DNA from: Trifolium pratense
Lineage: Eukaryota; Streptophyta; Magnoliopsida; Fabales; Fabaceae
Assembly: GCF_020283565.1 (NCBI RefSeq)
Contig: NC_060064.1
Span: forward strand, 26,432,337 to 26,496,336
Reading direction: 5' to 3'
DNA: 64,000 bases
The position numbers and the translations under genes are program-made. Each line of letters starts with the position of its first letter. Positions within the stretch are counted from its first letter, which is position 1. Positions 13,245 through 59,945 of the stretch are shown one piece after another. Under the pieces are notes generated by a model that had not been told where the DNA came from, did no database searches, and saw nothing but the letters and a program-made list of their open reading frames with translations.

Positions 13245-13345
13245 TAATTGGGTGAGGATAGTGTAATCTCTGCATCCTAAGGTTTAAAACAATGTTTGTG
13301 TTGTATCTACTTAGGATGCATATTACATATTCCTTAATATCAATG
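13245..13345 (+). ncRNA. MIR2111: MIR2111-like hairpin 1 of unit 1, degenerate
   Basis: The 5' arm (13264-13286) matches miR2111-5p except for an extra CT after UAAUCU and a G-to-A change late in the arm. The 3' arm reads TTAGGATGCATATTACA (13311-13327) and can pair back. The flanks GGTGTTAATTGGGTGAGGATAG and TTCCTTAATATCAATG extend the stem as in the intact copies. The inserted dinucleotide would shift or unpair the mature region, so this hairpin probably does not give the standard 21-mer. Confidence 0.7.
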
Positions 13346-13366
13346 TAAATTATACCTATTAAATGC

Positions 13367-13472
13367 ATATTGGGTGAGGATGGGATAATCTGCATCCTGA
13401 GGTTTAGAAGAGCAGTCGCATAATTGTAACTAAACCTTGGATTGCAGATTATCTCTTCCTCATAACCAATGC
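13367..13472 (+). ncRNA. MIR2111: MIR2111 precursor hairpin 2 of unit 1, exact mature sequence
   Basis: Bases 13386-13406 equal the conserved 21-nt miR2111-5p (starts UAAUCUGCAUCC, ends GAGGUUUA). The star arm CCTTGGATTGCAGATTATC lies at about 13435-13453. The lower stem pairs TTGGGTGAGGATGGGA with TCTTCCTCATAACCAA. miR2111 guides cleavage of F-box kelch-repeat mRNAs; in legumes the target is TML, a root suppressor of nodule formation, and the miRNA moves from shoot to root. Loop about 27 nt. Likely transcribed with hairpins 1 and 3 from the TATA box at 13145. Confidence 0.92.
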
Positions 13473-13542
13473 AGAACTATGGAGTCAGCTTAATAGTTTC
13501 CATCTTCCAATGGTGGAATTTTCCTTCATGGTGGAGTCAGTA

Positions 13543-13650
13543 TAAATATTGTGTAGGGATTAGATAATCTGCATCCTGAGGTTTACAACAGCTATATTTT
13601 AGTTGTCTTTAATCCTCAGAATGCAGATTACCGCATCCTTATTGTCACTC
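13543..13650 (+). ncRNA. MIR2111: MIR2111 precursor hairpin 3 of unit 1, exact mature sequence
   Basis: Bases 13565-13585 equal miR2111-5p exactly. The opposite arm, 13612-13632, reads ATCCTCAGAATGCAGATTACC and pairs with the mature strand with only two or three mismatches, the best duplex of the unit. The lower stem is shorter than in hairpin 2 (TGTAGGGAT opposite CGCATCCTTA). It lies about 180 nt downstream of hairpin 2, with GGTGGAATTTTCCTTCATGGTGGAGTC between them. The same spacer occurs in unit 4 before its third, decayed hairpin. Confidence 0.92.
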
Positions 13651-14174
13651 ATGCTAATTCTTATGGTTTGCAACTTTCGTTCTTTGTAGCTTAAATTTGT
13701 GCCACATATCTTGTGATGTAAAACTTCCAAATACCAATAGTTGGTTTCTCTGTTATTACAATGCAAAACTTCCTTCTTATTTTCACAAATATGAAGCTTG
13801 TACTTATTTTTCTAGCCCTCTAAGAAGGTTTTATTAGGATTTTCTCTTGAACAGAAAAGAACATACGTTTTTCCATTTTTGTTAAAATTTTCTCCTTTTA
13901 ATTTTCTGCATGTCAATTCACTATCAAACCTTGTGAACATTATGCTATTGGCAAGCTATTGCTTTGATTCCAGAATATAGTATTGTTGTTTGCATATGCT
14001 ATCCTCTTTTTTCTACTTAAGATTTTCATACTAATTTCATATTTTCTATAGTATATAGTATTAACCAATGAGCCAATGACAAATCTGTGAAATAGATTTT
14101 AGATACTAATTTTGAAGATTTTGAATGGCAGGGTGTTACATGAATCAAGAGATGCCATGAATCAGTGAAAGAAC
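13651..14174 (+). other. 3' flank of MIR2111 unit 1
   Basis: AT-rich, without ORFs. GTCACTCATGCTAATTCTTATGG, just after hairpin 3, has a counterpart at about 52310-52340 in unit 4. Nothing else is recognisable before unit 2 begins. Confidence 0.5.
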
Positions 14175-14544
14175 TTAATCAAAAGGGGTAAATTAGTAAT
14201 GAGAACAAAATGGTCCTCCTATATATATGCTCAACAATTATGGGCTTGTCCTAAAAAAATTGAAATTCTATACCATTCAAATGAACTTCAAGAATAACAC
14301 TCTGAATTAATGGTCCTTAAGTATAGAACATCTGCATAAAGTATTAGATTTGTTGATATCTATTCTTTGTAGATTGAAGTGTTTCCAAGAAGCAAGGTAA
14401 TCTCATTAGTGTAGTGTTATGCAAGGTGGTGCAGCCTTGTGGCTCTGCAACTAGTGTTATCTATTCTGAACGAAAAAAGAGACAGAAATTTCAGTATATA
14501 CCCAACATATTGAATGTGACATTGATAAAATTTGCTTCTCTAGT
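14175..14544 (+). repeat. MIR2111 unit 2, upstream block (hairpins lost)
   Basis: Close copy of 10111-10480: AATGAGAACAAAATGGTCC, then GCAAGGTGGTGCAGCC and GACAGAAATTTCAGTATA. Similarity breaks off near 14545, where LINE sequence starts. No miR2111 sequence follows, so the hairpin part of this unit was deleted or replaced. Confidence 0.75.
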
Positions 14545-16262
14545 AGTAATCTACAACCAAAGACATTAACTTTGGACGGAACATCGTTCTTCCGAAGCTT
14601 GTTGACAACTAATACTACATTTGAATCAAGAACAATGGGGTTGCAAGACTGTATATAACAACAAAGTATAGTAGTAATTAACAGAAAAGAGACTGACCGA
14701 ATCCGGAATCCAACGCCATTTATCTTAGGTATTTGATGGGAAAATAGAGCCAACCAATAGATCCTTAAGCTCATCTTGTTGTTGTTCATCATTGTTGGAT
14801 AATGCTTCAGACCAATGCCAAGACCATGGGAAGCTTCCCGTTCCAACTCAGCCTATCTACAATCATAACATCCTGACGTTCTTCTTTAGCAAATAGATTG
14901 GAGAATAAGTCACAAAATGAAACTTTACCAAACCACTTAAACCTCCGGTTGGATATTTGTGTATTGGCCTCATTTTGCTAAAACAAATATACTATTAAGA
15001 TGTTGGACCAAATGTTTCAACATGTGGGTACAACATCCAGTGTGCCCTATTTCGCGCTTTATTTACACGTCAGATCTTTTGAAGATTATATATGGAAATA
15101 ACGCACGCTTACTTGTGCGCCAAGACGCGGGTATTCTCGAAACCTAAAGAAGGTGGCATTGCTTTGCTGTCTTCGAAAAATGTTTCAACATTTAAGGAAA
15201 TAGGTTATTTTGGTTCTAGAATTTGTATGCTGGACATTGCATGGACTAGCTGCGTTTGAAGCCCTATTTGTTGATCAATCCCATGGTTGCTCAGAGTATT
15301 TAAAGGAAGACTTAAAACCTGATTTTACTAATGAAGCCGTTATTGAAGAAGAGTGTCTTTAGGGTTTGAGTCTTTTCATTGTTCATTGTTTATTGTGAGC
15401 TTCTCTAGTATCACCTTGATGCTAGAGTAGGATTGTGTTATTGAGTTGTAATTTGTGAACTACTCCTAAGTTTTGAAGTACAGAGTTGGTTTGTGTTATT
15501 GGAGTTGTCCTCCATCGGATTTTTATTAGTTGTATTCATAGGTTGTGTGATTGAGGGGAAGTGAGATGAGATCTCATATCTAGGAGTTCCTAGGTAGAAG
15601 TTAACACGGGTAGTGATTAGGTGAGAAGTCGTAAACTGTGAGTTTGCTGAGGGCTTCAAACTAACACTATTATAGCTTGCGCCTCTAGAGTAAGTGAGTT
15701 TACACCAAACTGGGTTAACAAATAACCAGTGTCATTTATTTTTCTGCCTTTATATTTATTTTGTTCATTATGCTATGTGTTAATACCATGTTGGAACATT
15801 AGACTCAACATTCGTTCACTATTCTGGTGTTGCAACATCGTGTACAACATCTGTTACTAGCGTGCCATAATTTCACCTCCAAAACCCAATGTTCTTTCCA
15901 TTACCATCACTACAACTCACGTTAAACCGATCAGCCTCCAACGACCTACCAATGCCTATGACATCCTTCCACCAAATAGACTCCTTACCACCAACCTATG
16001 TTGTTACTCTGCTTAATATTTTAGTGGGTAAATGACCGTATCTAAAACACAACAAATCGGCCCACTTTGCATCTTTGTCTACTAAGAATCTCCATTTCCA
16101 TATGCTTAACAACGCCGCATTGAAGACTTTAAGTTTTTTCACCCCTAAACCTCCTTGATCCTTCAGTTAGTATAGTCTTTTAGATATATATTTGCTTGTA
16201 ACTTTCATTATGTTATGCCATTGTAACTCCATTGAAACCCTAGCTACCTTTTATCTTTTGGT
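14545..16262 (-). mobile_element. LINE (L1) ORF2 fragment, split by a solo LTR
   Basis: On the minus strand it matches the fragment at 43607-44110 (RC landmarks: GAGCTTAAGGATCTATTGG, GGCGTTGG, AAGTGGTTTGG). Translation in broken frames gives the region C-terminal to the L1 reverse transcriptase: words like VKNLEVFNAAL, W.WRF, WW.DV.GIG and GNNDEQQLDELKDLL. The reading frame is broken by stops. The LTR at 14947-15875 sits inside it; joined across that gap the flanks match the uninterrupted copy at 43.8 kb. Confidence 0.7.
14947..15875 (+). mobile_element. Solo LTR, Sirevirus-like subfamily B (929 bp)
   Basis: Homologous to 10582-12628. Its first base is changed (GGTTGG for TGTTGG) and it ends GTGCCATAATTTCA. 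A perfect 5-bp target duplication CCTCC flanks it (14942-14946 and 15876-15880). No internal region remains, so it arose by LTR-LTR recombination. It carries the landmarks GATCTCATATCTAGGAG and GGGTTAACAAATAA. Confidence 0.85.
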
Positions 16263-17170
16263 ATATCTCTATTATTAACATATGGTATTAGAGTTCGATT
16301 GGGGAGCAATAAGTGAGTGGTGATAAATCATGGATGCAGAGAGACTCATATGAATTCTATCAAAACAGAAAATTATATAGAAAACAATAAAACAAATAGC
16401 AGAATACTATTCAATATTTCAAAATTCTAATTTCTACTATATAGTAACTTATTGGCCTTTAAGTCTTACTCCAACTGCCATCCATAATCACATAAGTACA
16501 ACATAAACTAATAAAATATATTGGTTTGAAATCCTTCGATCAACTTAAAAATCAAGCTAACTCACAATAACATAAAATTAAAATTGAGAATACAAAACTT
16601 GGAGGACATCCAAGTTTGGACCTAAAACAAATGACAACTATGCCTCATTAAAAACCTTACCTTTAAATCCTACAGGATAAATCAGGTGAAGGGAAAAAGA
16701 GTGCAGTCTCAAAGAAAACTAACATAATCTATATTCAAGAAGAAAAAATTTATTCGTAAAAAAGAAATTACATATATTAGTGGGGAATGGGGGTAGCATC
16801 CATTATTTTTGAGAGAATAATCCAACAAACTCTATGGAACACCCTAATGCTCCACTTTATTCTCATGAAAATTTTGGGCCTGCATATAATTCATTAAAGA
16901 TAAATATGTAAGAAGCATGGGGTGAGATAAGTTATAAATCACTTCAAGTTTTATAACAATTTCAATTGATTGAAACAAATACACAAAAGTACATTTGAAA
17001 AACCAAACCGTCAAAGGTGTACATATACTTGTACAAGATATGTATATCAAATGCAAAGTTCATCCACCTCTCCTCCTTTTGCATATTGTACCAATAATTC
17101 AAACTCAAGAAAGTATACTAGAGGACATGTCACAAAAAGAGGAACAACACACTTTTGGGTGAATTGAAGT
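16263..17170. repeat. 3' flank shared by duplicated units (counterpart at about 52.8-53.3 kb)
   Basis: Similar to 52790-53290: AATAATCCAACAAACT, CCACTTTATTCTC, GAAACAAA.ACACAAA, CCAATAA.T.AACTCAA. On the minus strand it looks like untranslated 3' sequence, and I find no exon. Bases 16263-16380 contain the end of a TRIM-like piece also present at 44215-44290 (GGGGAGCAATAAGTGAGTGGTGAT). Confidence 0.5.
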
Positions 17171-17806
17171 ACATCGCACGTTGACTACTATGATATTGTT
17201 AGGTGATTAGTCAGGGTTTCACAGCTTTATAATTATGCCCTAACGTCCAAGGATCGACGTGAATAATTGGGGTTTCCATACCGAAGCTTAAACACCTCCA
17301 GGCTTAAACAGTGGATTAAACTCCTACAAACTTATATAATGATTAAAGTTAGGTAGCCTAAGTATTAGGAATCAATTGGACCTCAAAAACATGATTTTTC
17401 TCGATAGGAAAGTCCCAATAGATTGGGACAGTTACAGGATACTTCCAATCTATTGAAATATGGTTTTTGCCACATGAACAGTGTTTTCAATCTATTGAGG
17501 CAGACTGACAGGTTTCTCAATCGATTGGCCCTGTCGAATTTGAAAAACAGTTGCTCAATGCGAAGGTCATAACTTGAGCTATGATTATCCGATTGAGACG
17601 AATAAAACGGAGATGAAAAGAGCTACAACTTTCATTCTGACAAAAATAGTTTTTCTGCACTTTTTAAACTATGAATCTCAATTTTCAAACTTCCCAAAAC
17701 CTCATTTTTGATCCCATAGCACCCAAGAACCTCTCTAATCACTATACACGGTTATGTTTCTGAACTTAGATGCAAAGATAGTTGGTCATGCATTTATAAC
17801 TAGTGG
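17171..17806 (+). mobile_element. LTR-like fragment with repeated CAATCKATTG palindromes
   Basis: Between 17400 and 17545 near-palindromes of the form CAATCTATTG or CAATCGATTG occur four to five times, separated by about 40 bases. The following GAAGGTCATAACTTGAGCTATG and AACGGAGATGAAAAGAGCTACAAC are words I associate with plant gypsy LTRs. The sequence seems to continue at 25377-25480 beyond the CACTA element. No TG/CA ends or target duplication identified. Confidence 0.4.
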
Positions 17807-17814
17807 TGACACTA

Positions 17815-18070
17815 GTAGAAAAATGACTTTTGGCTAAGAGATTCCACTACTGGTATGTCAATACCAGTAGTTAAAACCATTTGACCAAAGGATTCCACTA
17901 CTGATATTTGAATATCAGTAGTGAAAAGTTCATAGACAAGGGATTTCACTACTGGTTTTCTTAAATCAGTAGTGAAAAGTGGACACGGTGGCAATGTTGT
18001 AATTACGTTGAAATTTGTTTTAATTGTATTTCACTACCGATTTGGTATTCACCCGTAGTGGAATCCCTAT
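17815..18070. repeat. Left subterminal hairpin array of the CACTA element
   Basis: Four palindromic units of 50-70 bases. Each has ATTCCACTACTGG or a variant followed within 10 bases by its complement (for example CTGGTATGTCAATACCAG). The last one uses CACTACCGATTTGG...CCCGTAGTGG. They match the array at 24865-25360. Confidence 0.85.
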
Positions 18071-18483
18071 TAGTGTTCATTAATTAATTTGTTCATTCTC
18101 ATTCCATTCCCAATCCCTAACATACGCGAAGCCAAAACTCGCCATCTTCATCGTCCCAAGTTCTTCAAATCGCCAAATCCCTAAATCAAAACACTCCTGC
18201 GCCAAATCCCAATCATTCTCCAATCTCTTCTTCGTTTTCATTCGGTTTCATTCTCCAATCATTCCCTTTATCGTCCCATCGAGAGAAGCGATCGAACCCT
18301 AGACGGCCGACCCTGCAGAACGCCTAATCGCCTCCAAATTTCTTCGTTTTCATTCGGTAAAGGTATGAATAAATCAAACTTCCTCCAAATTTCATTCGTT
18401 TTTGTTTTCATTCTTGTTCATTCGTTTTCATTCGCTTGGGTTAGACATTGTTTTTCGAGATTACGAGAGACCCGAGTAAGAAA

Positions 18484-18855
18484 ATGATGATGAAAGGTAG
18501 AGGAATGGGTAGGAATAGGATTAATCCTGTTCAAACAAGTTCAAGTCATATGGGTGATAAGGATAAGATTCAAGGTATTGATTTTGCTTATTGGTTAAAG
18601 AGTGTTGTTACAAGTAAAGATTTTGTTGTTGTGAAAATGGATGTTGAAGGTACTGAGTTTCATTTGATACCTAAGTTGATTCAAACTGGTGCTATTTGTT
18701 TGATTGATGAGCTTTTTCTTGAGTGTCATTATAATAGATGGCAGAGATGTTGTTCTGGTCAGAGAAGTTCTAAGTTTCAGAAAAGTTATTCTGATTGTTT
18801 GGATTTGTTTACTGAACTTAGAGATATTGGTGTTCTTGTTCATCAATGGTGGTGA
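18484..18855 (+). pseudogene. Captured C-terminal fragment of a DUF7870/FkbM-type methyltransferase-like gene
   Basis: Open in frame from at least 18448; the first ATG is 18484 and the stop is at 18853-18855 (123 residues). The reading carries the C-terminal signature of a conserved plant family: DFVVVKMDVEGTEFHLIPKL, CLIDELFLECHYNRWQRCC and a terminal GVLVHQWW. KMDVEGTE resembles the conserved segment of FkbM-like methyltransferases. The N-terminal half is absent. It sits next to the left CACTA array and is free of stops, so it was captured recently or kept open by chance. Upstream bases 18120-18360 look like a 5' untranslated exon. A working enzyme is unlikely; a chimeric transcript is possible. 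Confidence 0.75.
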
Positions 18856-23609: not shown

Positions 23610-23671
23610 ACATTTGTTTTTGTTTTGCTGTGTTTGTTTAGTGTTTGTATATGTTCAATTAAGGGAGGGTA

Positions 23672-29730: not shown

Positions 29731-30697
29731 TGAAATATGGCACGCAGTGAACAGATGCTACGCAAGATGCTATATCAATTGTTGTAGTAATATAAACGCT
29801 GAATATAATAAAGCGATAAACAACAATAAAGTAAATAACACAAAACGTTTGTTAACCCAGTTCAGTGCAACATCACCTACTCTAGGGGATACCAATCCAG
29901 GAATGAATCCACTATAATAGTTCTAGTTCAAAGCCTTCGACCAACACCCGGTACTTGACTTATCGCTTATACACTACCCGTGTAATCCTACCTAGGAACC
30001 TCCTAGATATGAGACCCCGTCCCAATTCCTTCTAACAACACTCACAGTGCTGCTGTCAACTTAATAACGATCAAAGATGGAGACACTCTCCTAAGAAACT
30101 AGACTTCACTCTCGCTTAAAAGCTCTCAAGTAAAACACAATGCAAACTAACTCCGAACTTCAAAGCTTAGGAGTAGTCCACAATTAAAACCCAAGACACA
30201 GTCCTAAACTTGCATTGAAGTGACACGAGAAAGGCTTACAATTAACAACACACTCTAAACCCTAAAACTCACACTTTTAGTAAAACACGATTTAGATTAC
30301 ATGAGTAAAATAGGTTCGAGTCTTCACGTATTTATAGTCTTCAATTGTCTTGATGTGCAAGCTAGGTTTTCAGACACACAGTCTGTAAGAATTGCGGCCA
30401 GCGCTAGATTGTTTTAAAAATAAAACAATATTTGATTTAATACAAAAATATATCACGTTATATTTTTGTTTCAAATAAAACACATAAACCGCCTTTCAGA
30501 AACTTGGAGAATAAGGCACGGTTTGGCTTGGCTCATAAGCTTGATCATATAAACGAAACAAATCTTGCCTGCGATATGATATAAAAATTCCTGCGCAATA
30601 CAGACCAGACAATGCTGTACTCATATGCTACAACATCTTGTCCATCATCTTGCTAGAGTTGGCTTTTGTAAAATGTAGTCAATCACAAAACCCAACA
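29731..30697 (-). repeat. 3' LTR of the Sirevirus-type element (967 bp)
   Basis: Minus strand starts TGTTGGGTTTTGTGATTG directly after the polypurine tract and ends GCGTGCCATATTTCA. TATA box GACTATAAATACG near 30332-30344. Subfamily A, the same as the nested solo LTR at 10672-11717. Confidence 0.85.
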
Positions 30698-42775: not shown

Positions 42776-43085
42776 CCGGCTTGTAAGATGGAAATTGCCC
42801 CCACTATACTAAATTACTACTAAAAATATCATCTAATTGACTGTCATCAGTGACATTAATAGAAGAATTTGGGTTGGTCCTAACTAAATTTTATAAAATC
42901 GGCTTGTAAGATGGAAATTGCCCCCACTAATAAACATATTTTTAGGTCATCTTTCATCCATGGTCAGACTCATATTCGTAATTGGTTGAATGTAACATTT
43001 TGTTTTAATCAATGATTGCAGAGCCTATGCTTGATACATACATGCTGCAAATATGCAATTCACCTAATTTATTTTGTTAATGTGA
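42776..43085. repeat. MIR2111 unit 3, upstream part, with TRIM LTR and rearrangement
   Basis: GGCTTGTAAGATGGAAATTG plus CCCCCAC occurs twice (42777-42803, 42901-42927), with an LTR end between. 42868-42985 is a TRIM-type LTR in reverse orientation, at the place where unit 1 has one. 42995-43080 matches unit 1 (ACATTTTGTTTT, AATCAATGATTGCAGAGCC, CTTGATACATACATGCTG). Confidence 0.6.
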
Positions 43086-43440
<355 letters not shown>

Positions 43441-43606
43441 TGTATCAACGGCTGGTCTAGCCTACATATATGTGAGAATAAGGTATGAGATATGAAGATA
43501 AAAAGTTGTCACAAAGCAAAATAGTTGGTAACAAGATACAATAAACAAAATGTGACAAACCTTTTGAGATTGAGTTATAAAGTATTCCATGGATGAGATG
43601 TATCTA
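43441..43606 (+). repeat. MIR2111 unit 3, residual middle block
   Basis: CAACGGCTGGTCTAGCC, CACAAAGCAAAATAGTTGG and AGTATTCCATGGATGAGATG match 12700-13010. The match ends at 43606, where LINE begins; no hairpins follow. Confidence 0.75.
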
Positions 43607-44515
43607 CAACGCCATTTATCTTGGGTATTTGATGGAAAAATAGCGCCAACTAATAGATCCTTAAGCTCATCTAGTTGTTGTTCATCATTATTGCCAAGAC
43701 CATACGGGAAGCTCACCGTTCCAACTCAGCCTATCTGTAATCATATCATCCCGACGTTCTTCTTTAGAAAATAGATTGGGGAATAAGTCACAAAATGAAA
43801 CATTACCAAACCACTTAAACCTCCATAATCCAATGTTCTTTCATTACCAACATTACAGCTCACGTTGGGCTTAAACCAATCGGTCTCCAACGTCCTACCA
43901 ATGCCTATGACATCCTTCTACCAAATGGAATCCTTACCACCAACCTGTGTTGTTACCCAGCTTAATATTCTAGTGGGTAAATGACCGTATCTAAAACACA
44001 ACAAATAAGCCCACATTGCATCTTTGTCTACATAAGAATCTCCATTTCCATTTGCTTGACAACGCCGCATTGAAGACTTCTAAGTTTTTCACCCCTAAAC
44101 CTTCTTGATCCTTCGGTTAGTATAGTCTATTAGATTTGACTATATATTTGCTTGTAACTTTCATTATGTTATGCCATTGTAATTCCATTGAAACCCTAGC
44201 CACGTTTTATCTTTTGGTATCAAAGCCCGATTGGGGGAGCAATAAGTGAGTGGTGATGAATCGTGGATGTAGAGAGACTCACACTTGAGGGAAGATGTTG
44301 AGGTATGAAGTGTGAGTAAAAAGTCTCACATTGGTTGGAAGAGTAAAGATTGAGCACTTTATAAGTGAGGGAACTCATAACCCAGTGTATTAAGGTTTGA
44401 TCTTTAGACAAACAAATTTGATCCCACTTAATCCAACACAACTTCTTATCCTCTAAACAACCTCCCCACAAAAAATTCCTTTGGATCTTCACGAATTATT
44501 TAATAACACACTTTT
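43607..44515 (-). mobile_element. LINE (L1) ORF2 fragments with a TRIM-like insertion
   Basis: 44515-44400 reads MKIQRNFLWGGCLEDKKLCW then IKWDQICLSKD, and 44110-43607 continues with KWKWRFL, IWWKDVIGIG, and LGNNDEQQLDELKDLLVGAI. These are conserved L1 ORF2 segments after the reverse transcriptase. Between them, 44130-44385 has TGGTATCAAAGCCC, GAGGGAAGA and TGTTGAGGTATGAAG ... CTCACATTGGTTGG, the layout of a TRIM element. The same LINE piece is in unit 2 (14545-16262). Confidence 0.65.
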
Positions 44516-45305: not shown

Positions 45306-46345
45306 ATGAGGAAGTTTTTGGTTCCTAGAGCTATTGAGAATGTGAATATTGTACAATCGGATGCCGAACCAGAAGAACCACCACCTAATGTGGCCAATGA
45401 GGTCAATGAGTTTAATTCAAATGAGATTGTGCGTGATCCGAGTCTTAGGAAACAAATTCATGAGTATGCTCCGGATATTCAAGATCAAGTGAGGAGGGCA
45501 TATATATTGAAGGGTCCAACGCAAACAATTTTGAAAAATTATCCTCAAACTCAATTTGGAAGAGAAAAATCAAAAAGAGCATTTTGTAAAACATGGTATG
45601 AGAGGTATACATGGATAGAATACAGTGAGTTCAAGGATGCAGTTTATTGTTTCCATTGTTTTCTCTTTAAGCGTGAGGGCCGAGCACTTGGGTAATGAAG
45701 TCTTCACCAAAGGCGGATATAAAAATTGGAAGAGTGCATCCAGTGGCTTGAAAGATCATGTTGGTGGTCATGGTAGTATGCACAACTCATGTACGAAGCA
45801 CTATGATGATTATAATAATCAAAGACAAAGTATAGCAAATAAGTTTCTTAGAGCAACTAGAGTATCGGAAGAATTGTATAAGATCCGTTTGACTTATTCC
45901 TTAGATTGTTCAAGATATCTCATAGCACAAGGCATGGCTTTCCGTGGCCATGATGAATCTCTTACTTCTATAAACAAGGGCAATTTTAGAGAGATGGTAG
46001 ATTGGGTAAAATCTAATAATGAACAACTGAGAGATGCTTTTGACCGTGGTGCAAAAGATTGCATAATGATTTGTAGTGACATTCAAAAGAAAGATTCTAG
46101 GTGCAAAAGAAAGGTTAAGAGGGCAAGGATATGATGGGGCTTCAAATATGAGAGGTGAATTTAATGGTTTGCAAAGAAAGATTCTAGATGAAAACCCTTA
46201 TGCTTTATATGTCCATTGTTATGCTCACCGTTTACAATTATTGGTGGTTGTGTCTGTTGCTAGTAGTTGCTCTATTCATGATTTCTTTGAGTACATCTCC
46301 TTGATTGTAACCACGACAAGTGCATCTTGCAAAAAAAATGAACTA
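45306..46345 (+). pseudogene. hAT transposase (DUF4371/TTF-type zinc finger), N-terminal and middle part
   Basis: ATG at 45306. The first frame (to 45695) has DPSLRKQIHEYAPDIQDQVR and the finger region YFCHCFLFK-like (VYCFHCFLFKREG). A frameshift near 45690 leads to GGYKNWKSASSGLKDHVGGH and FRGHDESLTSINKGNFREM. A second break near 46085-46115 joins SDIQKK directly to RGQGYDGASNMRGEFNGLQ, so about 90 residues with the first catalytic Asp are missing. The frame then runs through YALYVHCYAHRLQLLVV and stops at the LTR insertion after SCKKNEL. It cannot be active. Confidence 0.85.
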
Positions 46346-48970: not shown

Positions 48971-49315
48971 TGTTTTTAGGGGGGGGGAGGAGTACCTAAT
49001 GTTGATCAGTTAATTGACCAAATCAAATAGGTCGCTCGGGTAGATATAGTGACTTTGTGTTTACAGATTGGCTCACACAACCTTTAGAGTGTCTTTTAGG
49101 GGGGGGGGGGAGGAGTACCTAATGTTGATCAGTTAATTGACCAAATCAAATAGGTCGCTCGGGTAGATATAGTGACTTTGTGTTTACAGATTGGCTCACA
49201 CAACCTTTAGAGTGTCTTAAAAAACTCTAAGGGCCCTTTTGTTGTATTTTGTAAGATTTTGAGTACTCCTTGTACTACTTATTAATACAACTTTTGCTTA
49301 TCAAAAAAAAAAATA
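48971..49315 (+). mobile_element. 5'-truncated LINE tail with target duplication
   Basis: Ends TTGTACTACTTATTAATACAA ... GCTTATCAAAAAAAAAAA, a plant L1 3' end with poly(A). The 16-bp target duplication TATTATTCGATAAAAT (48955-48970 and 49316-49331) is perfect. About two thirds of the insert is a tandem duplication (48974-49216). Confidence 0.88.
48974..49216. repeat. Exact tandem duplication of about 120 bases with a variable G-run
   Basis: Copies at 48974-49093 and 49094-49216. They appear identical except for the G-run near their start (9 versus 12 Gs). Each begins TTTTAGGGGG and ends CCTTTAGAGTGTC. Confidence 0.92.
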
Positions 49316-50699: not shown

Positions 50700-51655
50700 A
50701 ATGATCATGACGTTTATGCAATCACAAAAAAATGATCATGACTTTATTCTTTTTTGTTCAAATTTTTATTTTTGTGTATTATATTATTCTCATGAAACAC
50801 AAGTTATTAGTAACGAGAACAAAATGGACCTCCTATATTCACAAACAATTATGGGTTTGTCCTAAAAAATGAAATTCTATACCATTCATACTAACTTCAA
50901 GAATAACACTCTGAATGGTCCTCAAGTATAGAACATCTGCAGAAAGTATTAGATTTGTTGATATCTATTCTTTTTAGAATGAAGTGTTTCCAAGAAGCAA
51001 GCCTCGTGGTTCTGCATCTAGTGGTATCTATTCTGAATGAAAAAAGCGACAGAAATTTCAGTATATGCCCACATATTGAATGAGACATTTTGTTTTATCA
51101 ATGCTTGTGTAGCCTATGCCTGATCCGATCACTAATATCTGTTAAAATATGTTATATTTTCTTGCGTAAATTGGGTATCCTCTGCGCGCAAATGCAGAGA
51201 CTAATCCTTCAAGCTTTGGGCGATCCAAACAGGAGGCAAACTCTCCCTGAGAGTTTTAGCACTGCTGAATACTCAAGAGACCTGCGCCATCTCATCTAAG
51301 TGTCATTGGGGTGAATGTGCATTGTGAATTAAAGGAAATTAAAACTATCAACATAAATGTATCCACGGCTGAAGTAGCCTGCATATATGTGAGAATAAGA
51401 TCTGAGATTTGAAGAGGTGAAGCTGTCAAAAAAAGCATAAAAGTAAGTAACAAGATAGAACACACAGAATTTGGCAAGCTTTTTGGGTGAGCTATAAGTA
51501 TTGCACGGATGATATGTATCTATAATAAAGAAGATTCTTTTGTTACAGATTGCTATTTAGTGAACTAGATACTTTTTCAAAAAAGCGTGTTCAAAGAAAG
51601 AATCTTAAAAACATATGATTGGCTGCACAATTTTATCGAATATGTTTGAGGAACA
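50700..51655 (+). repeat. MIR2111 unit 4, upstream and middle blocks
   Basis: Full set of the landmarks of unit 1 without LTR insertions: AACGAGAACAAAATGG, TGTTTCCAAGAAGCAAG, GACAGAAATTTCAGTATATG, ACATTTTGTTTTATCAATG, CCACGGCTGAAGTAGCC, AAAGAAGATTCTTTTGTTAC, CATATGATTGGCTGC. It shows the pre-insertion state of the LTR in unit 1. Confidence 0.8.
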
Positions 51656-51663
51656 CTATAAAT
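51656..51663 (+). promoter_or_regulatory. TATA box of MIR2111 unit 4
   Basis: CTATAAAT in GAACACTATAAATTCCTATAATCG, the same context as in unit 1 (13145). About 125 nt before the first hairpin. Confidence 0.65.
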
Positions 51664-51784
51664 TCCTATAATCGTGCAGAAGTTTCACAATCAAACCTAA
51701 TTCAGCATTCTTCTCCTAGAGTATTTGCTCATATTCTTTCTTTCGGCCTCATTTGCTTGATACAACTTGCAATTGGGGTCAGTG

Positions 51785-51888
51785 TTATTGGGTGAGGATA
51801 TGGTAATCTGCATCCTGAGGTTTAGAGCAACGTTTGCGTTTGTATCTAGTCCTTAGGATGCGGATTATCTTTTCCTTAATACCAATGT
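51785..51888 (+). ncRNA. MIR2111: MIR2111 precursor hairpin 1 of unit 4, exact mature sequence
   Basis: 51804-51824 equals miR2111-5p exactly. The 3' arm GTCCTTAGGATGCGGATTATC (51849-51869) is close to the Arabidopsis miR2111-3p sequence. The lower stem pairs TTGGGTGAGGATA with TTTTCCTTAATACCAA. Loop about 24 nt. It is the counterpart of the degenerate hairpin at 13264 in unit 1 and shows what that one looked like. First of a series of three behind the TATA box at 51656. Confidence 0.93.
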
Positions 51889-51913
51889 AAAATAGACTTG
51901 TTGAATGGGAGTA

Positions 51914-52013
51914 TATTGGGTAAGGATAGGATAATCTGCATCCTGAGGTTTAGAACAACAGTTGTGTAATTGTATCTAAGCCTTGGATTGCGGATTATCT
52001 TTTCCTTATCACC
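51914..52013 (+). ncRNA. MIR2111: MIR2111 precursor hairpin 2 of unit 4, exact mature sequence
   Basis: 51932-51952 equals miR2111-5p exactly. The star arm is GCCTTGGATTGCGGATTATC near 51980-51999. The lower stem pairs TTGGGTAAGGATAGGA with TTTTCCTTATCACCAA with few mismatches. The same loop and arm changes occur in hairpin 2 of unit 1 (13367-13472), so the two are direct counterparts. Confidence 0.93.
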
Positions 52014-52089
52014 AATGCAGAACTGTGTAATCAAATGATAGTTTCCTTTTTCGCCAATGGTGGAATGTTGCTTCATGGTGGAGTCGGTG

Positions 52090-52205
52090 TAAATATTCGG
52101 TACATATTAGATAATTTGCATCCAGAGATTAATTTACAGCAATATATTATTGTTAGTTGTCTTGTCTTTAATGCTTGGAATGCAGATTATCCCTTGTTTT
52201 ATTTA
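52090..52205 (+). ncRNA. MIR2111: MIR2111-like hairpin 3 of unit 4, degenerate
   Basis: 52112-52132 differs from miR2111-5p at four positions (5, 13, 17 and 20 of the mature strand), and the 3' arm GGAATGCAGATTATCC is at about 52178-52193. Position and flanks (GGTGGAGTCGGTGTAAATATT) match hairpin 3 of unit 1, which is exact. Two of the changes lie in or next to the seed and cleavage region, so targeting of TML would be weakened or lost. Confidence 0.7.
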
Positions 52206-53468
52206 TGCAAAATAGTTTAGTCGATCTGATGTCGCACAAACCATAGAGAAGCATACTATAAATCTAATAGGTAACATTTAGTTAACAGAAATATTTGCCA
52301 CATATTGTTACTTATTCATGTTCATTCTTATGGTTTGCAGTTTTTGCTCCGACTATATGATATATATGACCAGGAACCATGTGTTTGAGATGATATATAT
52401 TCTATCATGCTTATGCAGTTACTTTGAGAGAGAACATTAGCTATGTTTTATATCCCACCTTAAAATTTGTTTTTAAAAGCATTTTTCATAACAAAAGAAA
52501 AATATATATTGGATTTAGAATCATAATTTTGTGATCAATTCTATATTTCAATGACGTATTTTACTTACCATTTTTCCATATCATATATATCCTTATAAAA
52601 ACTAAAAAAGTATTATGTGGAATAAATAAATGTTCACGCAATATGGAATATCACATCATCGATCGCCATAAATAACAATCCAACACAATAATTGAAAATA
52701 AAATATTTTCACATTATAGTGTCTTACAATTATCCTCATAACGAAATGACATATATAATATTTTCTCAAGAACATATTATTAAACTCGGCCCTGATGTAA
52801 AAATATCAGAGCCTTGCAACACAATTTAAACATACAAAATAATCCAACAAACTTTAAAGAACACCATAACATAGGAGAGAGAATAATCCTCCACTTTATT
52901 CTCGTGAACAAACACCTCGATACTACAACTGAGTCTTGTCTTGAGGATAGTTATAACGGCCTGTATAGAGAACCAGATAGAATTCTTGGAGTGAGATAAA
53001 TTTTAAATCATTTAAAGTGTTATAAAATTGCAGTGAATAGAAACAAACACACAAAGATACATTCCAAACATCAAACGATCTAAGGTGTGAATATAATTGT
53101 AAAATATATGTAATGTGGATGCACTTGTACTCGTTATGCGCATGTTGTTCCAATAACTTAGACTCAAAAAAGTATATTATAGGAGGACATGGTCAATTAA
53201 AGAAAAATAACACCCTTCCAAGCTTAATAAGTATGTCTTAACATCAAAAGGATCATCATTATTCATTGGTGTTTCCACACTGATGCTTAATCATCTCCGA
53301 GACTAAGTTAATGAACCAAACGGGTTCCTTTGCCGTCCATTTATTTAAAATTTTGCCTCACACGTTAAACAACCTTTGTATCGATGCATGTTTCACAAAA
53401 CAAAATATAAACAAACATCATCCTATAATTCACGTCGAAAAATTAATACCATATACACCTTTCACAAG
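52206..53468. repeat. 3' flank of MIR2111 unit 4
   Basis: AT-rich and non-coding. 52310-52340 matches 13650-13680 after hairpin 3 of unit 1. 52790-53290 matches 16810-17170 behind unit 2. So the duplicated segment extended at least 1 kb past the hairpins. No gene recognised. Confidence 0.55.
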
Positions 53469-54120: not shown

Positions 54121-54236
54121 CACCTTAGCACAATCCTTTACTCTCGTGAGCATGGTGTTGTTCAGGATAAAATTATATGCAACACATACAATCACAATGT
54201 TGGTATTTTGCCTTTGATTTGATGCAGTTTTAGGTT

Positions 54237-54370
54237 TCAGAGCACCACACGGGGCGTGGCCCTGGCTCACGCGAGGAACAATTGAAGTGCTTGGTTGGGG
54301 TTTGAATGTTGTCCACCACGCGGGGAGTGCCACTGTTCACGCGGGGCGTGGCACTGTTCACACGAGGCGT
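54237..54370. repeat. Array of CACGCGGGGCGTG-type motifs upstream of an LTR TATA box
   Basis: Five imperfect copies: CACACGGGGCGTGG, CTCACGCGAGG, CCACGCGGGGAGTG, TTCACGCGGGGCGTGG and TTCACACGAGGCGTGA. Several are followed by CACTGTT. The array ends 10 bases before the TATA box. It is absent from the related LTR at 26250-26917. Confidence 0.85.
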
Positions 54371-54785
54371 GAGACTGCTGTATAAAAATGCATAATCAGT
54401 TTTTGCAGCCGCCAGGAAGAGAGAGAAAGTGGAATTTTAGGGTTTTTTGATCCAATATCAAGTCTAGGAGCAAGAGGGTTTATCTTGGGTTATTTCTAGT
54501 GTTTGGATCTCTTTTCTTTCACCTTGTAATCACTTATTGATTGAATCTCTTGGTCACGGGGAAGATATTCGGGAAAATGGTAGATTTAGGAAAACTCTAA
54601 ATCTTGTAACTCTGTGTGGTTGAACCTTTTCTAATTAAGTTTTCATTGATAGTGGAACGGAGAGCTTTCTCTCCCCCATACTAGGTTGTTATATCCGAAC
54701 TGTGTAAACAAATTATTCGTGTTATTTATCGCTTTTGGTAGTTTAGATTTTTTTGATTTATTGCTCATTCATTTTGATTTGGTTG

Positions 54786-55674
54786 TAGGGATGACAATTT
54801 GACTCATACCCAGAGGGTACCCGCAAAAATTACCCACAACGGGTAGGGTAAAAACCCGCATTTTGGGTACGGGCACGGATATGGGTAATTGCCCGCAAAA
54901 ATTAACGGGTATGGGTGCGGGTACGGGTACTAGAGCTGTAAAAAGGGCCTTAAGGGGCCGGCCCTTTAAGGGGCGGACCCACTTATTCCTGATTATTAAT
55001 TTTATTTAAATTTTAAACAATTTTTCTAGTGTCGTGAACTTATTCTCTTTTTCTTCAATCAGCACTGTCCACGATCGGCACCCTAAAAAAACTGTGTTTA
55101 AAATTTAAATAAAATTAATAATCAGGAATAAGTGGGTCCGCCCCTTAAAGGGCCGGCCCCTTAAGGCCCTTTTTACAGCTCTAACGGGTACCTTAGTACC
55201 CACCTCGCCCCATACCCACATAATATATATTTATTTTATTTATATTATTATATAATAATATATGTAAATCAATTTTAAACAATACAACTCTATTAAACTA
55301 TTACATATTTTTAATAAAAATATTTATTTATAACATAATACAAAAATAATGTGAATATTTAACATAAATATGAACTTTAACATAAGGTTAGTAATAATTT
55401 TGTTTATAATTTTCATGAGTCAATAATAAAATCTTTGAAATTTTTTTAATTCTATTAAAATTATATGATATTTTATAATTAATCAATTTATTTTTAGTAA
55501 AAGTACGGGTAACGGGTACGGGTATGGGTACCTAGGTACCCATATGGTATGGGGACGTGGGGAAAAGTTGTTACCCACGCTGGTATGGGGATGGGTACGG
55601 GTATTTTTTCAATCCGCGAGTATGGGGATGGGTACTATAGTACCCTACCCATACCCTACTCATTGTCATCCCTA
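54786..55674. mobile_element. hAT-type MITE in the solo LTR (889 bp with its own insert)
   Basis: Inverted ends TAGGGATGACAAT / ATTGTCATCCCTA. Perfect 8-bp target duplication TTTGGTTG (54778-54785 and 55675-55682). Subterminal runs of GGGTACGGGTA / TACCCGTACCC. No coding sequence. It holds a second hAT MITE at 54931-55183. Confidence 0.93.
54931..55183. mobile_element. hAT-type MITE nested in the previous one (253 bp)
   Basis: Inverted repeats of about 88 bases, identical as far as I can read, beginning TAGAGCTGTAAAAAGGGCC. Perfect 8-bp target duplication ACGGGTAC (54923-54930 and 55184-55191). The middle is about 75 unpaired bases. Near-identity of the arms points to a recent insertion. Confidence 0.95.
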
Positions 55675-55831
55675 TTTGGTTGCTTCAATTTATTTGTCCC
55701 ACACATCAAAGTATTATTAGTGTAGTTTTCGGTTCGAATTCACAACACACAAGAACAACCTTATTAATTTATATATGTATATATGTCAAGCAACGAAAAT
55801 GGAATGACATTATAGATAAATCATATTTACT

Positions 55832-56128
55832 TTATGGTCTGCAACCGCAAAAACCTCTAACGCAGTGTAGTCTTGAATTTAAATCACAATGAGGACACTT
55901 GTTTATGCACTCATAGTCATGAGTGCAGCTTATTCTTTCTCTTATTGGTCTTTCTGTAATATAAAATAACAATATAGAAATATAACTAAAATTGGTGAAA
56001 GATTGTGTATAAAATTAAAAAAAAAAATTAAAAAATATGAGAAAGAGCTTACGGCTATCAACGGCTACAACGAGCAATAAAGAAATAAAAAGGATCATAG
56101 TATAAACAAACTTGAGAGTTTCACCCAT
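55832..56128 (-). CDS. Nodule-specific cysteine-rich (NCR) peptide gene, 7 Cys (65 aa)
   Basis: Exons 56053-56128 and 55832-55953, intron 99 bases with GT...AG, phase 1 as in NCR gene 1. Exon 1 encodes a signal peptide MGETLKFVYTMILFISLLL then VVAVDS. Exon 2 encodes a basic mature peptide (RPIRERIS, then CTHDYECINKCPHC, and CVRGFCGCRP at the end). Cysteine spacing is C-X5-C-X3-C-X2-C-X7-C-X4-C-X1-C. The last C-X4-C-X-C is the usual 6-Cys NCR ending; one extra cysteine in the middle makes seven. It would be secreted and oxidised, and an odd cysteine could allow dimers. Frame and splice sites are intact. Leader and TATA region resemble those of NCR gene 1. Confidence 0.87.
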
Positions 56129-56170
56129 TTTTTAACCTTTGCATGTAAAATATATAAAGTGGTTTGATCA

Positions 56171-56180
56171 CTATATATAG
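56171..56180 (-). promoter_or_regulatory. TATA box of NCR gene 2
   Basis: CTATATATAG, 43 bases before the start codon, in TTTGATCACTATATATAG, the same context as in NCR gene 1 (ATCACTTTATATAG). Confidence 0.65.
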
Positions 56181-57308
56181 TAAAAATATGTTGCTATGTT
56201 TACGTTAATTAAATAGTTTAATTTAATGATGATGTCGTTGCATAAAATATTTATTTAAAATTAATAATTATTAAATATGTGTCCAGAGTACAATGATTAA
56301 TGATATTTGTCCCTCTAGCTCAAAGAATAGATCTCACGTAATAGTTTTGCTTGAAATTTGAGTTTACCTATTTTTTATTATAATTTTTTATTTCTTATGT
56401 ACCCTTTGATAATAGTAGAGAGAGGAAAATCAAAATATTTTAGTATAAAGAAACAGAGTACAAAAGCATGATATGATTGTTGGAAAATTCTTCAATTGGC
56501 AAAAATACAAATGATATTTGTTAGGCACACTCACAAAATCATAAAAATAATTAAAAGAAAAGAAGTAAAATAATGTTAATTGATGTGACTATTTTATTTT
56601 CTTTTAAACTTTTTGATTTGTGTTTGTGTGTCTAAATATATTTTATTTGGGTTTGTGCCTAAACAAGAATTGCTCATTCTTCAAAAAAAAAGAATTGCTC
56701 ATGATTGTTATGACTTCCCAATTATTTCGGTACTCCATAAGGTCTTCTATCATTTGTAGCACCTTAAAGAAGTTTATTAAATAAAAAGAAATGAAAATAG
56801 AAAAGATACTTGGTGTTTGGGCTGAAAATGAGTCGAGTTGAGTCGAATTCACATCAGCTCGATTCAACTTGTTAAAAATTGGTCCAACTCAAAACTCGGT
56901 TTGAGTTTATTACGAACTATTTTTTTAGCTAAAACTTGACTCATTCGAAGTTCACGAACTATTTGGTTCAGTTCCTTAGGTTCAATTCGTTAAGTGAATC
57001 ACGAGATTTTAAAGACAATTTTTTGGTCAAAAATTTAAAAATTGGATCTTTAAGCTTTAAAACTATTTTTTTAAAGAAAAAAACAAATATTAAAATAAAA
57101 TAAAAGTTACCCAAATGTATAACAGAAAAACGAGAACAAAATTCAAATTGACAAAAATATGCAGAAAAATATATAAAACCATAAATCAAGAAAAATAGAA
57201 GTCAGTTCAAGTGTGTATAATGAATAAACACGTATAAAATTGTTTTTTTTTGGGTAAAATTAAAGGACAGTTTAGAAATAAAATTAAGTACTAGGTATAG
57301 ACAATAGT
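56181..57308. other. AT-rich intergenic sequence
   Basis: Upstream region of NCR gene 2. 56280-56400 resembles 29270-29440 upstream of NCR gene 1 (TGATATTTGTCCCTCTAGCTCA), so the duplication reached at least 250 bases upstream. The rest is unassigned. Confidence 0.5.
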
Positions 57309-58030
57309 CAGGGCCGATTCCGAGATTTTGGGGGCCCAGAGCAAATAATAAAAATGAATACCTAATAAAAAATAAATTTACGCAAAATATAACTATTTTT
57401 AAAAGAACATCATTTATTTAAATTGTAAATAGTATTAAAAACATAAAAAATAATCATTTATTCGTGTAACTAACATAAAAAAAGTCATATTCTGCATCGT
57501 TGAAATTAAACCAATAAATAAAAATTAAAAGATAATTAATAAATAAAATTAATATTTACACAACAAATAAAATAAATAATAAAACAAAACAAATCAAATA
57601 AATAATAAAATAACTAGATGTTCAATGGATTCAATTCCCGACAACTTTTCTTTAGTTTCTTAATTTCTTTAATAAAAAGACTCTTAAAATAAAATATTTA
57701 AAAAAAAAATAAGCAACTCATTACCAAAAGGAAAAAACAATATAAGACTTGGCTGATGTTTTTTTCTCTATTATAATAGTTTTTGTTTCAAAAAAAAAAT
57801 AATAAAAAAACAAAAAAAATAACTGGGAGAGCGTTAAACTGGCACCTCTCCATGTAGGAGTCATAGACACCGTGCGCACTACCATTGCGACAGATTAGAT
57901 TAGTTGAAATTTTTATGTTACAAACTATACTTAATCAATTATATTGATGGGCCCAAAAAAAATTTGAGGCCCCAATATTTTGGAGGTCCTGGGCTGGAGG
58001 CCTGGTTGCCTTGGCCCAAAACCGGCCCTG
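57309..58030. mobile_element. Non-autonomous hAT element, copy 2 (722 bp)
   Basis: Starts CAGGGCCGATTCCGAG and ends CAAAACCGGCCCTG. Target duplication ACAATAGT / ACAATAGC (7 of 8). Same family as 8941-9760, with GGTCCTGGGCTGGAGGCCTGG near the right end. The centre is A-rich and non-coding. Confidence 0.88.
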
Positions 58031-58619
58031 ACAATAGCCATATATAGGCTTAAATGAATGTATGCAAAGTTCATTTATATGTGTATAGTTTAAAAAGATT
58101 TTGAAAGTTAATTAGTGTGTATAAATGTTTAATATGAAAGAGTGTTTTAAGTACTGCAATATGCACAAATCGTGAATAACATTATAACAAATATAAATTT
58201 TACAAAATTATCATTGGATCAAAAGTTTATATCATATTGATCATCCATAAAACAAAATTAGGAAAATTAAAAATCACTTGATATTGTTATTGGATCCGTC
58301 AAGATTAATGATTTATGAATTTTTATTGAATATCGTTATTCTTGATGAGTCTGAATAACATATCATATGACAGGGTGGGAGCCAGTCATGGGCTGCGGAC
58401 GCCATGGCCCGCCCTAAGTCTTAATTTTTTTTTATAGGTACGTATATGTCATATAAATTAACAAAAGTTGATTGTTGACTCATATATCTCTTTTAAAGAG
58501 AGGACCAAAGGTAATGTCACATAATTTTTCGTTGTTAATTACATCATAAAGTAATAAGTATTGGCTTAGTAATATACCAATATACTGATATATTAATTAG
58601 CTAATGATCTTGCATTTAT
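58031..58619. other. Intergenic sequence with one hAT-like end
   Basis: 58372-58425 (CAGGGTGGGAGCCAGTCATG, GCCATGGCCCGCCC) looks like a single hAT terminus without a partner. The rest is AT-rich and unassigned. Confidence 0.4.
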
Positions 58620-59013
58620 TTTTAATTTCTTTGTAATTGTAAACACAATGGTCCTCACGCCTCAACAAATTGAGATAGATATTTTACACCATTCAAATTA
58701 ACTTCAAGAATAACAGTCTCAATGGTCCTCAAGTATCGAACATTTGCAGAAAGTATTACATTATTCTAAGTGTTTCCATGAAGCTAGCTAATCTCATTAG
58801 TGTGTAGTTGTATGCAGGGGTGGTGCAGCCTTGTGGCTCTGCATCTAGTGGTCTCTATTCTGAATGAAAATAAAGACATAAATTTCGATATAAGCCCACA
58901 TGTTGAATATGACAGAAGTTCCAAATACAGCTATCCAACATGATGTGGCACAATTGCCGGATAATTGAGTTCCTTAATCAAGTGATAATATAGGTTTCGA
59001 TACCTGATTAGTG
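58620..59013 (+). repeat. MIR2111 unit 5, upstream block
   Basis: AATGGTCCTCAC, AATGGTCCTCAAGTAT, GTGTTTCCA.GAAGC, GGTGCAGCCTTGTGGCTCTG and AATTTCGATATAAGCCC match the upstream blocks of the other units, more diverged than between units 1, 2 and 4. Confidence 0.7.
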
Positions 59014-59227
59014 TGTATTAGAAGTCCAACATCGGTTGCGAGATGACCTAAATATATGTTTATAAAGAAGATGCAATCTCCACCTTACAAGCCGGTTTTG
59101 TAAGGTTAAGTTAGGCTCAACTGATCAATTCTAAGATGGTAGCAGAGCCTCCTCCATGATTCGTTGGGCCGCGCCTGCTATCGAGTTTTTGATCGGATCA
59201 TCCACCAGTGCTGGGCGCGAGGGGGCG
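59014..59227 (+). mobile_element. TRIM-type miniature LTR element, 3' LTR decayed
   Basis: LTR-like 59014-59134 (TGTATTAGAAGTCCAACATC; TTACAAGCCGGTTTTGTAAG; GGCTCAACTGATC), primer-site-like TGGTAGCAGAGCC at 59137-59149, and a purine stretch GGGCGCGAGGGGGCG at 59213-59227 before TGTTAAGAA. The same LTR type lies, reversed, in units 1 and 3. Confidence 0.55.
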
Positions 59228-59720
59228 TGTTAAGAAATCTTAAATTGAAAGATTAGTAAATAACTTCGGGCCAGAGGATACCTTGGACTAAAGAATAGGC
59301 ACATAATTTATTTTTGAGGCAATATGAAGATATTAATAAGATCTATGTGCATTGTTAAAATTTTGGAAATTTACTACAATCAACATACATATATCCAAGG
59401 CTGAAGTAGCATGCATGCATATATGTGAGGTGAAGATATGCGATGGGAGATGTGAAAGTAATACTGTGTGCCAAAGCATAAAAGTTAGATAAAACACAGA
59501 GAATATGGCAAACTTTTTGGGACAAATATTCTAAAGCACTGCAAGGATTGAAATGTATAATAAAGCAGATTCTTTGTTACATATTGCTCTGATTCAAGTG
59601 CAATGGAAATCATATGTCAAGAATAAGTGATGTACATTATTTTCATCATAACAGTCAAGATAAGAATCATTAAAAGAATGATTTGCTAAACCGTCTTAGT
59701 CGAATATATTTGTGGAACAT
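59228..59720 (+). repeat. MIR2111 unit 5, middle block
   Basis: CCAAGGCTGAAGTAGCATGC, GATGTGAAAGTAATACTGTG, AAAGCAGATTCTTTGTTAC and TCGAATATATTTGTGGAACA match the block before the TATA box in units 1 and 4, with some extra sequence. Confidence 0.7.
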
Positions 59721-59727
59721 TATAAAG
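59721..59727 (+). promoter_or_regulatory. TATA box of MIR2111 unit 5
   Basis: TATAAAG in GTGGAACATTATAAAGTAATATGATC, aligned with CTATAAATTCCTATAATCG of units 1 and 4. About 70 nt before the hairpin stem. Confidence 0.55.
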
Positions 59728-59764
59728 TAATATGATCATTTGCTTAATACTACATCGATTTGGA

Positions 59765-59876
59765 GTCGGTGTACATTGTTTGAGGATAGGGTAATCTGCA
59801 TCATGAGGTTTAGACCATACATATATGCATTGTGTCTAGTCCTTGGGATGCAGGTTACCTTTTCGTTATTACCAAT
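59765..59876 (+). ncRNA. MIR2111: MIR2111-like hairpin 1 of unit 5, one mismatch
   Basis: 59792-59812 equals miR2111-5p except for position 12 (A for C). The star arm 59839-59859 reads GTCCTTGGGATGCAGGTTACC and still has the G that would pair with the original C, so the change opens a mismatch next to the cleavage position. The stem otherwise pairs well (TTGTTTGAGGATAGG with CCTTTTCGTTATTACCAA). It could be processed as a miR2111 variant with changed target pairing. Confidence 0.83.
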
Positions 59877-59897
59877 ACAAGAAACTTGTTGAATGAG

Positions 59898-59945
59898 AGT
59901 AAATGAGAGCAAAATAATCTGCATCCTCAGGTTTAAAATAAGAGT
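59898..59945 (+). ncRNA. MIR2111: MIR2111-like half hairpin of unit 5, 3' arm lost
   Basis: 59915-59935 equals miR2111-5p except for position 14 (C for G). No complementary arm follows: the next bases are a short repeat (GAGTAAATGAGAGTGAACG) and then a Stowaway MITE at 59979. It is probably not processed and is a relic of the second hairpin. Confidence 0.7.

Follow-up and report, generated by a model that had tools for sequence, protein, structure and literature searches.

A 64-kb stretch of the red clover (Trifolium pratense) genome, referred to below as the window, occupies C6:26432337-26496336 in a 413.6-Mb assembly and is the middle of a 75-kb cluster of MIR2111 hairpins on contig C6. Judged from its sequence, this cluster is very probably a family of RNA polymerase II (Pol II) genes, here called units, with one to four hairpins each, which were duplicated and then decayed, and whose product would target TML. 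In other legumes, miR2111 is a mobile signal from leaf to root that permits nodulation; as part of the autoregulation of nodulation, such a signal is characterized by an expression in leaf phloem that rhizobia repress via the CLE/HAR1 receptor pathway. In Lotus, shoot miR2111 lowers root TML mRNA and raises nodule number in a dose-dependent manner, according to one report (PMC7562733). A first-pass annotation of the window had already recognized a MIR2111 locus and placed it in a legume context. The identity of the locus is borne out by the 21-mers and folds described below, and the source organism is a nodulating legume.

Mature sequences and hairpins in the window

The window was scanned with the 21-mer that we take to be miR2111-5p, allowing up to three mismatches, and 100 dinucleotide shuffles served as a control. 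Seven matches were obtained, versus none in the shuffles: four exact ones on the plus strand (13386, 13565, 51804, and 51932), two with one mismatch on the same strand (59792 and 59915), and one corresponding to the minus-strand reading of the star arm of hairpin A3. A second, looser scan added two sites with four mismatches (13266 and 52112), for a total of eight plus-strand sites. They are distributed over three units, named A (13.2-13.6 kb), B (51.8-52.2 kb), and C (59.8-59.9 kb), in which the hairpins are numbered separately.

In plants, a miRNA precursor is recognized by a mature sequence lying in the stem, with no more than five unpaired mature positions and no more than three asymmetric bases. 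Six of the eight sites (A2, A3, B1, B2, B3, and C1) agree with these stem criteria, with the mature sequence in the 5' arm, whereas A1 and C2 do not. The folding z-scores given here are somewhat favoured, as the folded stretches were picked for the lowest energy per base. Unit B contains hairpin B2 (51917-52011, exact mature sequence at 51932-51952, two unpaired mature positions, z -10.2) and hairpin B1 (51789-51879, exact at 51804-51824, a single unpaired position, z -9.7). In unit A, hairpin A2 (13371-13464) contains the exact sequence at 13386-13406, with two unpaired mature positions and zero asymmetry (z -9.1), and hairpin A3 (13550-13642) contains it at 13565-13585, also with two unpaired positions (z -8.2). 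The antisense strand of A3 folds equally well (z -8.8) and carries a miR2111-like 21-mer with two mismatches. Hairpin C1 (59777-59869) holds a variant miR2111, with C changed to A at position 12, and leaves three mature positions unpaired (z -7.0). In units A and B, star sequences are predicted at 13433-13453, 13612-13632, 51849-51869, and 51979-51999.

The three other sites show decay to various degrees. Hairpin A1 (13251-13337) has a two-base insertion in its mature region, and 8 of the 21 mature positions are unpaired (z -5.8; -5.75 before rounding). Hairpin B3 (52097-52192) has a mature sequence with four mismatches (52112-52132), a z-score of -3.7, and a target penalty of 5, versus 2 for the canonical sequence. 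C2 (59915-59935) consists of a mature 21-mer with one mismatch and no 3' arm (z -0.3). Down to position 62500, its best match to the star sequence of B2 has 9 mismatches out of 21, versus 7-9 in control stretches, so that the arm is absent; it was not found beyond the nearby repeat resembling a miniature inverted-repeat transposable element (MITE) either. By sequence and fold, five precursors in the window are sound (A2, A3, B1, B2, and C1), and three are decayed (A1, B3, and C2).

All eight sites claimed in the first-pass annotation, four of them exact, are therefore present, as is the opposing arm at seven of them, the exception being 59915. A covariance model built from six hairpins and applied to the whole window recovered the seven armed hairpins on both strands. 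The next matches of this model, at 62145 (E-value 0.0003) and 61201 (E-value 0.007), both fall on inverted repeats, and no 21-mer within seven mismatches was detected at either. Shifting the pairing partner among the six hairpins reduces pairing from 92% to 34-47%.

The cluster beyond the window and its predicted TML target

The whole assembly was searched with up to two mismatches, using the reversed pattern as a control. Sixteen places were found, versus none for the control: 13 on contig C6, two on contig C4, and one on contig C1. The 13 places on contig C6 comprise 11 plus-strand mature sites between 26,427,082 and 26,502,357, the star arm of A3, and a site in TML at 30.15 Mb. Four of the 11 mature sites belong to unit E, six to the window, and one to unit F. 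Unit E, found 5 kb left of the window, consists of an upstream block shared with other units (block X, described below), a promoter, and four hairpins, with mature sequences at 7083, 7262, 7433, and 7612 of the extracted stretch L009. On the right-hand side, at a distance of 6 kb, unit F has just one hairpin, which carries the exact 21-mer (L010:6001). Unit G, on the minus strand of contig C4 (L012), is a separate pair of hairpins accompanied by a third, decayed one, G3 (L012:4005-4096), which shows a one-base deletion in its mature region. The locus had been described as several units spread over 46 kb with up to three hairpins each. The existence of multiple units stands, although the locus is wider, owing to E, F, and the pair on contig C4; likewise, the limit of three hairpins is valid inside the window and is exceeded by unit E.

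The folds of E1-E4, F1, G1, and G2 leave at most four mature positions unpaired. The place on contig C1 is without a sound hairpin, and three stretches around the cluster (L011, L015, and L016) contain no further sites within 5, 5, and 6 mismatches, respectively. In the places examined, 12 of 16 hairpins are sound (E1-E4, A2, A3, B1, B2, C1, F1, G1, and G2), while A1, B3, C2, and G3 are decayed. This inventory, based on a genome search at up to two mismatches, is a minimum. The exact 21-mer is present in 7 of the 12 sound hairpins.

The TML site (C6:30,151,503, two mismatches) lies in an open frame encoding kelch repeats (L013:4361-5587). The encoded protein is 100% identical to a 409-residue 'F-box/kelch-repeat protein At3g27150 [Trifolium pratense]' and, on sequence grounds, is identified as the TML/HOLT homologue of red clover. 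The site begins 143 bases into the coding sequence (CDS), and Medicago TML1 is reported to have a miR2111 site at the corresponding CDS place (PMC11668588). MIR2111 genes typically have a TML/HOLT F-box kelch target with a complementary site near the 5' end of its CDS, and the candidate is predicted to be such a target. Nineteen of the 21 miR2111 positions (1-18 and 21) pair with TML, positions 19 and 20 being unpaired. Six mature changes are found in the 12 sound hairpins. Four of them, three at positions 19-20 and one at position 21, occur in E1, G1 (twice), and G2, and those at positions 19-20 fall where there is no TML pairing anyway. As for the other two, the change at position 5 in E2 yields a G:U pair, and that at position 12 in C1 yields a real mismatch. 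At the protein level, a second T. pratense TML (P0255; 63% identical) carries the peptide PQDADY in the equivalent position. TML and the MIR2111 cluster are located on the same contig, 3.65 Mb apart.

Duplication and decay of the units

The alignment of units A, B, and C is co-linear over promoter and hairpins alike (order h1-h2-h3), with C broken in h2. The A-B match extends over 12964-13657 in A and 51476-52211 in B. The inferred promoters, all on the plus strand, are located at 12622-13246 (A), 51357-51784 (B), and 59345-59772 (C), and contain TATAAA at 13146, 51657, and 59721, in aligned positions. The distance from this hexamer to the first mature sequence is 120, 147, and 71 bases, respectively; in unit E, which matches A across the TATA stretch, it is 162 bases. 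Behind one aligned TATA, mature sites are spaced by 120-180 bases in A, B, and C, and by 171-179 bases in E. Units A and B also share an inverted CCAAT (13111 and 51622), located 35 bases ahead of the TATA, which is not found in C or in D (a remnant unit described below).

Further upstream, A, B, and C alike are preceded by block X, of about 240-340 bases. The copies X1 (10137-10474, upstream of A), X3 (50806-51089, upstream of B), and X4 (58678-58914, upstream of C) are on the plus strand and match one another as well as a fourth copy, X2. Between the end of X and the first mature sequence there are 753 bases in unit A (with a 2-kb insertion excluded), 715 in unit B, and 878 in unit C, so that X belongs to the duplicated unit. 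The common promoter, TATA position, and block X support the first-pass view of TATA-headed units multiplied by segmental duplication. X2 (14188-14534, plus strand), downstream of A, is 95.9% identical to X1 without gaps (Kimura two-parameter distance, K2P, 0.043) and may, from its sequence, be a remnant of another lost unit. The idea that the tail of a host gene makes up block X was considered and found to be unsupported: its longest open stretches are short (at most 63 residues) and differ between copies.

Divergence was computed as K2P with gaps excluded. Between A and B, it amounts to 0.086 in X, 0.113 in the proximal promoter (12964-13246), 0.084 in the TATA core (13120-13207), 0.202 in the distal promoter, 0.14-0.26 in the hairpins, and 0.17 and 0.38 in the two spacers. 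Between B and C, it is larger (0.386 in the promoter, 0.23 in X, and 0.227 in h1). Between A and B, X is as little diverged as the TATA region, even though some 0.7 kb separate its end from the first mature sequence.

Unit D (42850-43609, plus strand) has the tail of X and two promoter pieces (42850-43077 and 43435-43609) without any hairpin. It is colinear with A over 10456-13015 and then jumps to A 14711-16348, 1.7 kb further on, so that both the TATA box region and every hairpin are missing; another TATAAA hexamer is present at 43576. Between the two promoter pieces of D sits a plastid rpoC2 fragment (43102-43323, minus strand), which matches plastid RNA polymerase beta'' chains (E-value 2.7e-26) and is absent from A. 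Conversely, the 2-kb insertion in the upstream region of A (10583-12622) is absent from D, where the sequence is continuous (43006/43005). Related copies of this insertion are found at 14948-15872 and, reversed, at 29731-30695. The downstream block common to A and D (14711-14946, equivalent to 43607-43824) looked LINE-derived by eye, an origin that was not retained, as Pfam returned no family for the two open reading frames (ORFs) there.

An unrooted tree was built from 15 hairpins, excluding C2, which has no 3' arm. It groups A2, B2, E1, E2, and E3 as type 2 (support 88) and A3, B3, and E4 as type 3 (75); F1 groups with G1 (84) and G2 with G3 (94), and the remaining supports are 50-79. From this grouping, unit E is made up of three type-2 hairpins and one type-3 hairpin, and by eye only flanking sequence remains at its type-1 place. 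Accordingly, A and E have each lost type 1, B has lost type 3, and D has lost all types; C has a broken type 2 and no type 3.

The lesions that could be traced are the two-base insertion in A1, the substitutions in B3, the loss of the 3' arm of C2, and, in D, the deletion of the hairpins together with the gain of plastid DNA. Contrary to the first-pass proposal of shrinkage by transposon damage, the traced losses go back to small mutations and deletions rather than to transposons. The units are nevertheless spaced apart by transposons. The terminal repeats of two Copia elements differ by 0.9%, far below the divergence of the units, which places these two insertions after the unit duplication.

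Weight of the evidence and comparison with known MIR2111 systems

The favoured explanation is that each unit is most likely a single Pol II gene, with a TATA box located 71-162 bases ahead of the first mature sequence. Its transcript would carry between one and four hairpins, from each of which DCL1 would release a 21-nt miR2111, and the products would be pooled. An ancestral unit made up of block X, a promoter, and hairpins of types 1, 2, and 3, in that order, would have been copied in tandem, the type-2 hairpin being copied twice more inside E, before different hairpins decayed in different units. For red clover, we infer that the pooled miR2111 would move to the roots and direct the cutting of TML mRNA there, with an effect on nodulation, and the number of sound hairpins would plausibly set the dose. 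The function that the first-pass annotation regarded as clear is here a predicted one.

The comparison of hairpin arms is consistent with this explanation. Across all three A-B hairpin pairs, including the decayed ones, 4 of 63 mature positions are changed (a count that excludes gapped columns and hence the two-base insertion of A1), versus 21 of 74 loop positions (Fisher p 0.0008). The combination of a conserved mature arm and a variable loop, a trait of the MIR2111 family, is thus found between A and B. Any two of the 12 sound hairpins differ on average by 35% in their loops, by 22% in their stars, and by 4.7% in their mature sequences; the last value is partly circular, as the hairpins were found and chosen by their near-exact mature sequences.

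Beyond these two restrictions, several results weigh against the explanation. The star arm, with 10 of 60 positions changed between A and B, does not differ from the mature arm at the 0.05 level (p 0.09). Rfam reports no family in the window at its gathering threshold, and its five matches below threshold at 13.0-14.0 kb are all to other families; covariation in the six hairpins does not exceed that of column shuffles. The type-1 hairpins A1, B1, and C1 were matched by position and do not form one group in the unrooted tree. TATAAA hexamers are common, with 71 on the plus strand of the window, and because of this frequency the evidence lies in the aligned position shared by the units, not in the presence of the hexamer. 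For F and G, the hexamers (146 and 148-150 bases before the first mature sequence) were looked up within 500 bases and are unaligned with the other units, so that these weak matches may be due to chance. The phosphate element P1BS occurs once, upstream of A only, and scans for P1BS, G-box, and W-box upstream of the units revealed no element common to all. Finally, Pfam detects no F-box domain in the TML candidate, whose name rests on homology.

Among the alternatives, a real locus in a transposon-rich stretch, with most of its units silent, is the one that survives best, although it is somewhat improbable. Nearly all miR2111 would then come from one unit, for example, F or E, which both lie beyond the window, and copy number would say little about dose. 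According to the Lotus report (PMC7562733), leaf expression is highest for the single-hairpin MIR2111-5, three of the seven loci are below detection in leaves, and overexpression of MIR2111-4, an expressed locus, left nodule number unchanged; F1 is likewise a single hairpin. The exact mature sequences and sound folds kept by A and B despite the divergence of their loops suggest, on the contrary, selection at least until recently.

A second alternative, which is clearly unlikely, concerns function: the conserved role would be a general root response to nitrogen or phosphate, acting on lateral roots, with nodulation being secondary in legumes. Lateral root initiation is under the control of miR2111 and TML/HOLT in both Lotus and the non-nodulating Arabidopsis (PMC10700597). 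The copy numbers (7 in Lotus, 15 in Medicago, and six in soybean, versus two each in Arabidopsis and rapeseed; PMC8321092) fit an added symbiotic role, without constituting a test of it. As for MITE-like inverted repeats merely resembling a miRNA, this explanation is hardly credible: several self-complementary repeats do exist in the window (e.g., 59966-60119, 61179-61312, and 62102-62263), but the 21-mers are exact, the loops diverge more than the mature arm, the promoter is common and aligned, and there are just 16 places in 413.6 Mb, 11 of which are the plus-strand sites of the cluster.

If the favoured explanation of duplicated and decayed MIR2111 genes is taken one step further, clover might tune its nodulation signal by gaining and losing hairpins, either singly inside a unit or together with a whole unit, the units being interchangeable dose modules. 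This extension, which is rather doubtful, is based on the fact that A and E are without type 1, B is without type 3, type 2 is tripled in E, and D has lost everything, yet about a dozen sound hairpins are kept. It would imply that the number of hairpins in the cluster varies between clover populations and helps to set nodule number.

Multi-copy, multi-hairpin MIR2111 loci are already known in Lotus, and the clover cluster fits this pattern. PMC7562733 describes seven Lotus loci with ten hairpins, two of the four expressed loci having two hairpins each, and all loci except MIR2111-1 (chromosome 1) lying as tandem pairs close to the chromosome 3 pericentromere. The clover cluster shares with Lotus MIR2111-2 and MIR2111-7 the presence of several hairpins per locus, and with the Lotus set as described there the occurrence of tandem paralogues and of single- and multi-hairpin loci on one chromosome. 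Unit F resembles MIR2111-5 in its hairpin number. In contrast to the two-hairpin units of Lotus, clover has two three-hairpin units (with one decayed hairpin each), one four-hairpin unit, and one hairpinless remnant; moreover, transcripts are demonstrated in Lotus and predicted in clover. Clover resembles Medicago, for which PMC8321092 gives 15 copies, in its high copy number (12 sound hairpins and 4 decayed ones, counted over the places examined), and the arrangement in Medicago may well be similar. Like the predicted target in clover, that in Arabidopsis is a TML homologue, HOLT (PMC10700597). Arabidopsis differs from the multi-unit clover cluster by having two precursor loci, MIR2111a and MIR2111b, which presumably yield the same mature 21-mer.

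In the titles and abstract openings surveyed, no red clover MIR2111 locus was mentioned, which is no proof of absence, and no three- or four-hairpin MIR2111 unit was mentioned in these or in the passages surveyed. The variant 21-mers of C1, C2, and the A3 antisense had no match in the literature text, in RNA or DNA letters. The biology of the family is confirmed rather than overturned by the clover cluster, where the history of multiplication and decay can be read in detail. Its layered record of unit duplication, within-unit hairpin expansion, and hairpin-by-hairpin decay is a clear example of plant miRNA family turnover. As units, decayed copies, and a target site are mapped in a forage crop, the cluster offers a place to compare copy number, dose, and nodulation.

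Other features of the window include a Gypsy ORF, whose T. pratense protein matches reach 100% over 59% of its length. Among ten ORFs tested, that at 18445-18855 (plus strand) matches Pfam DUF7870 (E-value 1.3e-22) and is a plant gene or gene fragment. A DUF4371 fragment, presumably hAT-type transposase-like, lies at 45619-46134, and a perfect tandem duplication, with a 123-base unit starting with a G run, is found at 48979-49218, possibly of recent origin or due to an assembly effect.

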